Part shown: in pieces, positions 11,586-13,344 of the stretch
Position numbering within the stretch: position 1 is the stretch's first letter
Layout: each line of letters opens with the position of its first letter
Assembly: GCF_004684205.1 (NCBI RefSeq)
Contig: NZ_SRIO01000016.1
Coordinates: forward strand, 1 to 45,480
Reading direction: 5' to 3'
Length of the DNA stretch: 45,480 bases
DNA from: Candidatus Macondimonas diazotrophica
Lineage (GTDB): Bacteria > Pseudomonadota > Gammaproteobacteria > UBA5335
Made by a program: the position numbers and the translations under genes
The notes under the pieces: generated by a model
Databases searched by the model: none
What the model was told of the DNA's origin: nothing
The model's input: only the letters and a program-made list of their open reading frames with translations

Positions 11586-12623
11586 GTGTGGACCGAATTG
11601 CTGGGCCAATATGGCCTGTTTGCTGCCAAGCTGATCACTTTACTCGTTGGCGTACTCGCCCTGGCGCTGATCGTTGGGGGCATGCGTCGCCAACGCCCAC
11701 CGATTCCACAAGGCGATCTGCAACTCGAACATCTGAATCGGCATTATCAGCGCTTGCGCGACGGGCTGAGCCGCAGACTGCAGCCGGCACGAAACGGTCG
11801 TTGGCAGCGTCTCAAGAATCACCGCCCATGGCGCGCCAAAGCCAAGACCCCGCCCGCTCAGACCAATGGCCGACGCGTATTCGTTCTCGATTTCCACGGC
11901 GATTTGCAGGCATCAGCGACCGTCGCCCTTCGTGAGGAAATTTCGGCTTTGCTTCAAGTCGCCGAAAATCACGATGAAGTCGTCCTGAGGCTGGAAAGCA
12001 GCGGCGGAATGGTGCATGCCTATGGACTGGCCGCTTCGCAGCTGCAGCGCCTGCGCGACCGTGGGATCGCGCTAACGGTCTGCGTGGACAAGGTGGCTGC
12101 CAGCGGCGGATATATGATGGCCTGTGTCGGACAGCGCATCGTCGCCGCACCGTTTGCCATTGTGGGATCCATCGGCGTCGTGGCCCAACTGCCCAACTTG
12201 CACCGGCTTCTCCAGCGACGCGATGTCGATATTGAACTGCACACTGCCGGCGTCTTCAAGCGCACGCTCACCGTCCTGGGAGAAAATACCCCGGAGGCGC
12301 GAGAGAAGTTCCGCCAGGAACTCGAGGAAGCCCATGATCTTTTCAAGCAATTCGTCCGCCAGCACCGCACCCGCCTTGATATCGACAAGGTGGCCACCGG
12401 GGAGCACTGGTACGGCACCCAAGCCCTTGAACTGCGATTGATCGATGAAGTTTCAACCAGTGATGACTATCTGATGCGCCTGCTCGACCAGGCTCAGATC
12501 TATCGACTGCGCTATCGCCTTGCGCGCCCCATGTCTCGGCGGCTGTTGAGCCTCGGGGGACGTCTGGGCGACACGGTGGTGTCGTGGTTGGCGAGCCGGC
12601 ACCATCTTCTCTTTAAAGACTGA
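11586..12623 (+). CDS. sohB: SohB-type inner-membrane serine protease (peptidase S49)
   Basis: A 345-residue S49 peptidase of the SohB/SppA type. One N-terminal membrane segment (about residues 12-32) is followed by a basic linker and the protease domain. The nucleophile is S173 in VDKVAASGGYMMA and the general-base lysine is K225 in AGVFKRTLTVLGE. SSGGMVHAYGLAA and VGSIGVVAQLPN are family motifs. SohB proteases act in the periplasm and have been linked to turnover of misfolded exported proteins. Start is GTG with AAGGA upstream. Its end lies just before a strong promoter-like sequence for a separate RNA. Confidence 0.92.
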   Translation: MWTELLGQYGLFAAKLITLLVGVLALALIVGGMRRQRPPIPQGDLQLEHLNRHYQRLRDGLSRRLQPARNGRWQRLKNHRPWRAKAKTPPAQTNGRRVFVLDFHGDLQASATVALREEISALLQVAENHDEVVLRLESSGGMVHAYGLAASQLQRLRDRGIALTVCVDKVAASGGYMMACVGQRIVAAPFAIVGSIGVVAQLPNLHRLLQRRDVDIELHTAGVFKRTLTVLGENTPEAREKFRQELEEAHDLFKQFVRQHRTRLDIDKVATGEHWYGTQALELRLIDEVSTSDDYLMRLLDQAQIYRLRYRLARPMSRRLLSLGGRLGDTVVSWLASRHHLLFKD

Positions 12624-12644
12624 TGGTGATCATTAACAAATGGG

Positions 12645-12692
12645 GAAATATTTTTTCAGGCAATTGACAAAATCATGATGGCTCCCTATGAT
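12645..12692 (+). promoter_or_regulatory. Near-consensus sigma70 promoter with AT-rich upstream element
   Basis: TTGACA (12664-12669) is a perfect -35, TATGAT (12687-12692) is a one-mismatch -10, and the spacer is exactly 17 bases. An A/T-rich stretch (12645-12657), resembling an UP element, lies just upstream. This is the best promoter I can read in the window. Initiation is expected near 12698, inside a region with no protein-coding gene. Confidence 0.8.
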
Positions 12693-12697
12693 TCGAT

Positions 12698-12818
12698 CCC
12701 ATCAACCGCTCGATGATTCGAGCGGGGCTGAGCAAGGTCATAGCACTGTGTCTCCTCCTGAAAGGACCCCCTCGTCCTTTCACGCACTTGACCCCCTGAC
12801 CCTCAGGGGGTTTTTTTT
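12698..12818 (+). ncRNA. Candidate trans-acting small RNA, ~120 nt
   Basis: A self-contained transcription unit between sohB and the cytochrome c' gene. After the strong promoter come hairpin 1 (CCGCTCGA 12706-12713, TGAT loop, TCGAGCGG 12718-12725), a single-stranded linker containing TCTCCTCCTG (12751-12760), hairpin 2 (GAAAGGAC 12760-12767, loop CCCCTC, GTCCTTTC 12774-12781) and a GC-rich terminator with eight Ts. Both internal hairpins have perfect 8-bp stems. The C-rich linker and loop would be complementary to Shine-Dalgarno sequences, as in several known Hfq-type or anti-SD small RNAs. It does not match tmRNA, SRP RNA or 6S RNA as I know them. An alternative reading is an attenuated leader of the downstream cytochrome gene. 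Confidence 0.72.
12792..12818 (+). terminator. Strong rho-independent terminator
   Basis: Stem CCCCCTGA (12792-12799), CCC loop and TCAGGGGG (12803-12810) are followed by eight consecutive Ts (12811-12818). It ends the candidate small RNA and isolates it from the cytochrome c' gene that starts at 12898. Confidence 0.92.
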
Positions 12819-12897
12819 GCCTGTAATCCGCCCAGAGTCAACTATTCCGCAATGTCGGGTACACTGATTGCGCGTCGAATCCGCACAGGAGACCCTG

Positions 12898-13344
12898 ATG
12901 AAGCCCTTGAGAATTGCCCTCGCCCTCAGCCTCATGACCCCATTTCTCGCGTCGGCTCATGGCGGAGACCATGCCGACCCCATCCGCTACCGCCAATCGG
13001 GCTTTTACCTGATCGGTTGGCATTTCGAACCCATGGCCGCAATGGTCAAGGGCGAAATGCCGATGGACACTAAGGACTTTGCGGCCCACGCAGCAGCGGT
13101 ATCGGCCGTAGCCCCCCTACTGACTGCTGGATTCGCAAACGGCCCCCACAAGGGCAAGAGCGACGCCAAAGCCGAGATCTGGAAAAATCCCGCCGACTTT
13201 GCAAAGAAGATGGAAGCCTTTCAAAACGAAGCCGCGCAACTGGCTGAAGTGGCCCAAGTCGGCGATACGGCCAAAATCAAGGGCCAGTTCATGAATACCG
13301 CCAAGACCTGCAAGGCTTGCCACGATGACTATCGCAAGGATTGA
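12898..13344 (+). CDS. Class II c-type cytochrome (cytochrome c' type)
   Basis: A 148-residue exported cytochrome. A signal peptide (about residues 1-20, ending near LASAHGG) is followed by a four-helix-bundle-type domain with the haem-binding CKACH at C138-C141-H142 close to the C-terminus, which is diagnostic of class II cytochromes c. It is a periplasmic electron carrier or gas-binding protein. The ATG at 12898 is preferred over 12868 because CAGGAG lies just upstream and the signal peptide starts there. It converges with a cytochrome b561 gene with only three bases between stops; the pairing suggests a functional b/c' partnership. Confidence 0.92.
   Translation: MKPLRIALALSLMTPFLASAHGGDHADPIRYRQSGFYLIGWHFEPMAAMVKGEMPMDTKDFAAHAAAVSAVAPLLTAGFANGPHKGKSDAKAEIWKNPADFAKKMEAFQNEAAQLAEVAQVGDTAKIKGQFMNTAKTCKACHDDYRKD

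Follow-up and report, generated by a model that had tools for sequence, protein, structure and literature searches.

The window, by which we mean the whole stretch of 45,480 nt that was analysed, carries a complete putative sRNA gene at 12664-12818 on the + strand, comprising the promoter TTGACA-N17-TATGAT, three stem-loops, a UCUCCUCC linker and an intrinsic terminator. Its upstream neighbour is sohB (peptidase S49; 11586-12623, + strand), and the next coding sequence downstream is the gene for cytochrome c' (12898-13344, + strand).

The locus between sohB and the cytochrome c' gene

The sigma-70-type promoter (12664-12692, +) is made of TTGACA at 12664-12669, a spacer of 17 nt and TATGAT at 12687-12692; it matches the consensus at 11 of 12 letters and is the sole sigma-70-like site within 1.5 kb (shuffle mean 0.5). 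The transcription start is predicted at about 12698-12700. An A/T-rich tract 5' of the -35 box (12640-12662, +), with comparable tracts in relatives, may act as an UP element. The earlier note had described a complete transcription unit at this place, with an AT-rich tract upstream and without an ORF, and this observation was confirmed: all its elements were located, and no ORF of at least 80 aa is present on the + strand inside the gene.

The first hairpin, SL1 (12706-12725, +), has a stem of 8 bp, CCGCTCGA-TGAT-TCGAGCGG, with the loop TGAT, as read from the sequence and the predicted fold. The C/U-rich linker TGTCTCCTCCT (= UGUCUCCUCCU) follows at 12749-12759 (+) and is the presumed anti-Shine-Dalgarno (anti-SD) seed. 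The second hairpin, SL2 (12759-12782, +), is formed by TGAAAGGAC-CCCCTC-GTCCTTTCA, with the loop CCCCUC in the RNA. Two perfect 8-bp hairpins had been proposed, which is right for SL1, whereas the stem of SL2 has 9 bp. The spacer CGCACUUG (12783-12790, +) is predicted to be mostly single-stranded, and its CGCAC is near-invariant in almost all members of the family. The intrinsic terminator (12790-12818, +) consists of a 10-bp stem and eight Us, with the hairpin at 12790-12812 and the eight Ts at 12811-12818, which sets the 3' end of the sRNA near 12818. The predicted fold of 12696-12820 has an energy of -53.1 kcal/mol (z = -5.2), and 0 of 200 shuffles were equally stable.

The reading as an unannotated sRNA with an anti-SD-type linker and of no known family was also supported, as the Rfam gathering threshold was not reached anywhere in the whole window, nor by any family member scored. 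No further DNA copies of the gene were found within its own genome. About 70 nt 5' of the predicted start, at 12621-12638, the sequence CTGATGGTGATCAT is weakly FNR/CRP-like and appears as TTGAT-N4-ATCAT in two other genomes of the order (G002 and G003); since the sohB stop codon overlaps the left half of this site, its conservation may be coincidental.

Conservation and covariation of the RNA core

In a DNA search, five other genomes of the order matched the 3' 70-95 nt of the sRNA, with identities of 89-98%. With R1, a covariance model built on the sRNA core, the core was found in 7 of 9 genomes of the order, that is in all those keeping the sohB locus; the two genomes without it (G001 and G007) are 80-86% complete and have no sohB match either, and the only R1 match in G001, a weak one, is a separate RNA (L075). 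The synteny sohB - (diguanylate cyclase) - sRNA is seen in most of the order: the sRNA is directly 3' of sohB in G002 and G003, about 0.5 kb beyond it in G006, which has a second full copy elsewhere in the genome, and separated from it by a diguanylate cyclase gene in G004 and, it appears, in G005. Copies distant from sohB are found at G006:C20 and G008:C126. TTGACA is perfect in all 8 intact copies of the order, and the spacer measures 16-18 nt; G004 and G005 carry in tandem a second core without promoter or terminator, which looks decayed.

The conserved core comprises the linker, the SL2 stem, the CGCACTT spacer and the terminator. SL1 varies in sequence and place, with different yet foldable hairpins in G002 and G003. 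The anti-SD-type linker pointed out in the earlier note is part of the core. The same note had the SL2 loop also pairing with SD sequences, which is not supported as a family trait: the C-rich loop is restricted to the window's own family and one neighbour, and other members have TAAC, TCTG, ACA and others in its place.

Both-sided changes were observed at 13 of 15 base pairs, namely at 7 of the 9 pairs of SL2 and at all 6 model pairs of the terminator, with 95.5% of cells pairing in an alignment of 19 distinct sequences that is model-fitted and hence leans towards structure. None of 500 shuffles reached 13 of 15, and structures slid along the alignment gave 1-4 such pairs. A loop-free hand count of the SL2 stem over 16 sequences found 123 of 128 cells paired (shuffle maximum 111). 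The both-sided changes indicate that selection acts on the two 3' hairpins at the RNA level. A search for compensatory changes in both of the upstream hairpins had been suggested in the earlier note as a check; such changes are found in SL2, along with the terminator, and SL1 is not conserved in sequence. At the level of sequence, the comparison establishes that promoter and terminator, strong and conserved, belong to the gene itself, and that its two 3' hairpins are kept as RNA.

In predictions over 59 relatives, CUCCUCC had a mean unpaired probability of 0.77, compared to 0.46 for the whole transcripts. In the minimum-energy fold of the window copy, 5 of 8 linker bases form weak pairs with the 5' part, so that an mRNA or a chaperone would have to open the linker.

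Distribution, the phaR locus and candidate function

A scan of 84,980 genomes with an exact pattern (CTCCTCC, GAAAGG...CCTTTC, CGCAC) gave 65 stretches, nearly all from Salinisphaera, Nevskia, Solimonas, Hydrocarboniphaga, Sinimarinibacterium, Panacagrimonas and kin (Nevskiales/Salinisphaerales), from unplaced Gammaproteobacteria and from MAGs of the window's order. Single matches are titled Rhodospirillales, Lysobacteraceae and Endozoicomonas, and may be misnamed. Since the stem letters were fixed by the pattern search, this set was left out of the covariation evidence. Searching 369 genomes of the class with R1 added members beside a phasin gene (G120, G236) and elsewhere (G033, G046); weak matches there, with E about 1e-5 to 1e-2, were excluded from the family.

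In Nevskiales and Salinisphaera, the sRNA gene is commonly located between phaR, upstream on the same strand, and the convergent pnp gene. The PhaR N-terminal motif is encoded within 3 kb upstream in 44 of 66 members, several others being cut by the end of the locus, and a PhaR-type operator, TGCRNYGCANMA, is present in the 160 nt upstream of 52 of the 66 (expected 0.008 per region). In 49 members the operator overlaps the last base of the TATANT box, 16-18 nt after TTGAC, the putative PhaR-controlled promoter being the one with TATACTGCACYGCAACA. These members are found in L113-L177, with the operator over the -10 box (e.g. L148:6000-6200). The published PhaR consensus is TGCRNYGCASMA, and the listed sites include TGCACCGCAACA and TGCATTGCAACA (PMC6201568). 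In Sinorhizobium, the CU-rich sRNA MmgR is repressed by PhaR (AniA) through the TGCACCGCAGCA site in its promoter, and MmgR in turn lowers phasins (PMC12542648, PMC8401924). Our comparison suggests that Nevskiales and Salinisphaera may have a phaR-sRNA module, with the sRNA probably under PhaR control, paralleling alphaproteobacterial MmgR; a literature search of incomplete coverage gave nothing relevant on an sRNA associated with phaR in these groups.

The window's order is different in this respect, as PhaR is absent from all 9 genomes and its operator is absent upstream of all 8 copies of the sRNA gene, which argues that the window copy is wired differently: the RNA is shared, the switch is not. 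PhaC is present in 1 of the 9 genomes, and given these absences we rejected a PHA role of the sRNA in the host of the window.

Taken together, 12698-12818 very probably encodes a free-standing, trans-acting anti-SD sRNA of about 120 nt, a reading that includes the mechanism proposed here and the PhaR control in Nevskiales and Salinisphaera. The independent promoter and terminator that mark the class are both in place. In the proposed mechanism, SL1 would protect the 5' end, and the UCUCCUCC linker, held between SL1 and SL2, would pair with the purine-rich ribosome binding site (GGAGGAGA) of selected mRNAs and block their translation, with an RNA chaperone probably binding at the U-tail. In Nevskiales and Salinisphaera, where the operator overlaps the -10 box of the phaR-adjacent promoter, titration of PhaR by PHA granules would probably free the sRNA promoter. 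The window's order lacks this operator, and a simple strong promoter seems to drive the sRNA there.

Candidate targets were looked for in the window's own genome, where AGGAGGAG-N2-9-ATG occurs 11 times, compared to 4 times for the reversed pattern. Three of the 11 sites read AGGAGGAGACA, the full 11-nt complement; two of these belong to genes for an AmoC/PmoC-family monooxygenase subunit and for a membrane hydroxylase with the Pfam domain FA_desaturase, AlkB-like on our reading of its motifs, and the third to a gene for a protein of no assigned family. A complement of at least 9 nt near the start was present in about 9 of 50 other homologues of the two candidates in the order, compared to 1 of 91 control genes (Fisher p about 4e-4), an enrichment that is a lead rather than a result, since homologues do not count as independent observations, the start is uncertain in some cases, and strong SDs may simply be a feature of such genes. 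Membrane hydrocarbon monooxygenases with the ribosome binding site AGGAGGAGACA are named as candidate targets in the window's order in a suggestive sense only. The sRNA segment GUCUCCU is the complement of AGGAGAC (12887-12893), the ribosome binding site of the cytochrome c' gene; this gene was discarded as a special target, a complementarity of 7 nt being ordinary for an SD. The window's genome (G000; e.g. L219, L248) carries six AmoC/PmoC-family and at least six AlkB-like genes, which suggests a hydrocarbon-oxidising host.

Three other explanations of the region can be weighed against a free-standing anti-SD sRNA. The promoter begins only 40 nt past the sohB stop codon, in the same direction and with no other terminator between, and the sohB synteny is kept in most of the order, so the region might be taken for no more than the untranslated 3' end of the sohB mRNA with its terminator, giving no RNA of its own. 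This is very unlikely, as no intact copy lacks the perfect TTGACA promoter, the diguanylate cyclase gene intervenes in G004, the copies of G006:C20 and G008:C126 lie elsewhere and those of Nevskiales follow phaR instead; moreover, a terminator alone would not require the conservation seen in the linker and SL2. A role of the sRNA as leader or attenuator for the cytochrome c' gene, the start codon of which is about 80 nt beyond the sRNA end on the same strand, is hardly credible: a strong terminator precedes that gene, no conserved alternative pairing was found, the next gene is on the other strand in G006 and pnp is convergent in Nevskiales. The earlier note had itself raised a mere leader as what would overturn its reading, and the conserved promoter and the copies away from both sohB and the cytochrome gene speak against it. 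We also give little credence to a sponge or decoy sequestering another small RNA or a protein rather than repressing mRNAs. The strong promoter and the several copies in some genomes would suit such a role, and the Caulobacter CU-rich alpha-r8 RNAs are bound by a sponge, so that RNA-RNA circuits with such motifs exist (PMC12559287); known CU-rich RNAs of the same plan, however, repress mRNAs at the SD (NmsR).

For the free-standing anti-SD sRNA, a wider scenario is conceivable, although we regard it as doubtful: a new gammaproteobacterial riboregulator family would couple carbon storage to translation through the phaR-sRNA module of Nevskiales and Salinisphaera, in which PHA granules titrate PhaR, having evolved in parallel to MmgR and been rewired in the PhaR-less lineage of the window to repress PmoC-like and AlkB-like mRNAs with the ribosome binding site AGGAGGAGACA. 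These findings suggest that control of CU-rich anti-SD sRNAs by the PHA sensor PhaR, as in Sinorhizobium MmgR, may be a wiring that recurs across proteobacteria; were it recurrent, the link between carbon storage and translational control would be directly testable.

Relation to known CU-rich RNAs

The nearest Rfam family is RF02278, the Betaproteobacteria toxic sRNA, which comprises CU-rich double-hairpin RNAs such as ncS03, ncS05, ncS27 and ncS62 of B. cenocepacia; these double-hairpin RNAs have paralogous copies, and over-expression of ncS27 slows growth (PMC5688073). A diverged member of RF02278, rather than a family of its own, is a possible identity for the window RNA, compatible with the anti-SD sRNA reading, though we consider it unlikely. 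RF02278 is the best match, aligned over the full length and with UGUCUCC aligned (26.9 bits; relatives 28 bits), and the window RNA has its plan of a CU-rich stretch, a short hairpin and a terminator, with paralogous copies in both. Three RF02278 matches, one above the threshold and two below it (L179, L190, L195), likewise have PhaR-like sites upstream. On the other side, the score is about half of the gathering threshold of 50, and no genome of the order has a match above it (the best, of 29.2 bits, is a different RNA, and several sub-threshold matches are apparently other terminators or coding DNA). Scored with our own model, the two RF02278 loci that pass the threshold (L178, L179) reached only 15-18 bits, compared to 44-99 for family members. 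Most RF02278 RNAs have only two hairpins, and RF02278-type matches carry CUCCUCC-AUCCUCC...GGUGG, with the CU-rich motif inside the hairpin and no CGCACUU spacer.

RF02278-like RNAs themselves (L178-L207) typically consist of CTCCTCCATCCTCCTTTGGTGG and a terminator, have their own promoters and match in 77 of 369 genomes of the class, only two passing the Rfam threshold; RF02278 is probably wider than its name. Near such an RNA, two genomes carry a small CU-rich RNA-like element, GAGCTCAAGTAAGAGCTATCCTCCTGTCCCCAATATTG, with a terminator (L190:2471-2532, L195:233-294). Another CU-rich element, TGTCTCCCTCCGACTCCAACC followed by a terminator, is common to two genomes (L038:1351-1580 in G006:C110 and L040 in G007:C50; RF02278 25-29 bits). 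A further conserved CU-rich sRNA-like element, GATCCTCCACGATCTCCCTCTCTCGCACTT with a terminator, is found in the window's own family (L080:1430-1565, that is G000:C12:47886-47950, and L083, L084, L081 and L075); a sigma-54-like GG-N10-GC (TTGGCGTAATCTGTGC) lies upstream of it, and in G003 it adjoins a phoU-like gene.

The suhB/MmgR family, RF00519 (alpha-r8; Sinorhizobium), and Caulobacter SisA-D share the UUUCCUCCCU anti-SD stretch (PMC12542648, PMC8401924, PMC12559287). For the Nevskiales members, the same control by PhaR as for MmgR would apply, whereas the window copy has no PhaR site. MmgR/suhB is alphaproteobacterial and has a two-hairpin layout; the window gave no match to RF00519, and the best Salinisphaera member reached 29.7 bits against a threshold of 41. 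Anti-hemB (RF02837; Burkholderia) is likewise a CU-rich sRNA with a terminator, aligned weakly at 19.5 bits, far under its threshold of 49.5. The RNA would act in the manner of NmsR and of the double-hairpin RNAs, but as RF02278, RF02837 and RF00519 all fail on score, we describe the RNA as a new family of a known anti-SD kind. It adds a family absent from Rfam 15 to environmental gammaproteobacteria, several carriers of which are cultured (Salinisphaera, Solimonas, Hydrocarboniphaga).

In layout, compared as published, the window copy corresponds to NmsRA and NmsRB of Neisseria meningitidis, the nearest example with a worked-out mechanism; these have three stem-loops, with UC-rich sequence both in the linker that joins SL1 to SL2 and in the SL2 loop, and they repress through SD pairing (PMC5362039). 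The tandem cores of some order-mates are a further likeness. NmsR does use its own SL2 loop for SD pairing; among the present RNAs, only the window's family and one neighbour retain this second anti-SD. The host and the neighbouring genes are different, and the targets of NmsR are TCA and methylcitrate genes. The best reading of these likenesses and differences is that the window RNA would represent a separate, unlisted family with the three-stem-loop plan of NmsR.
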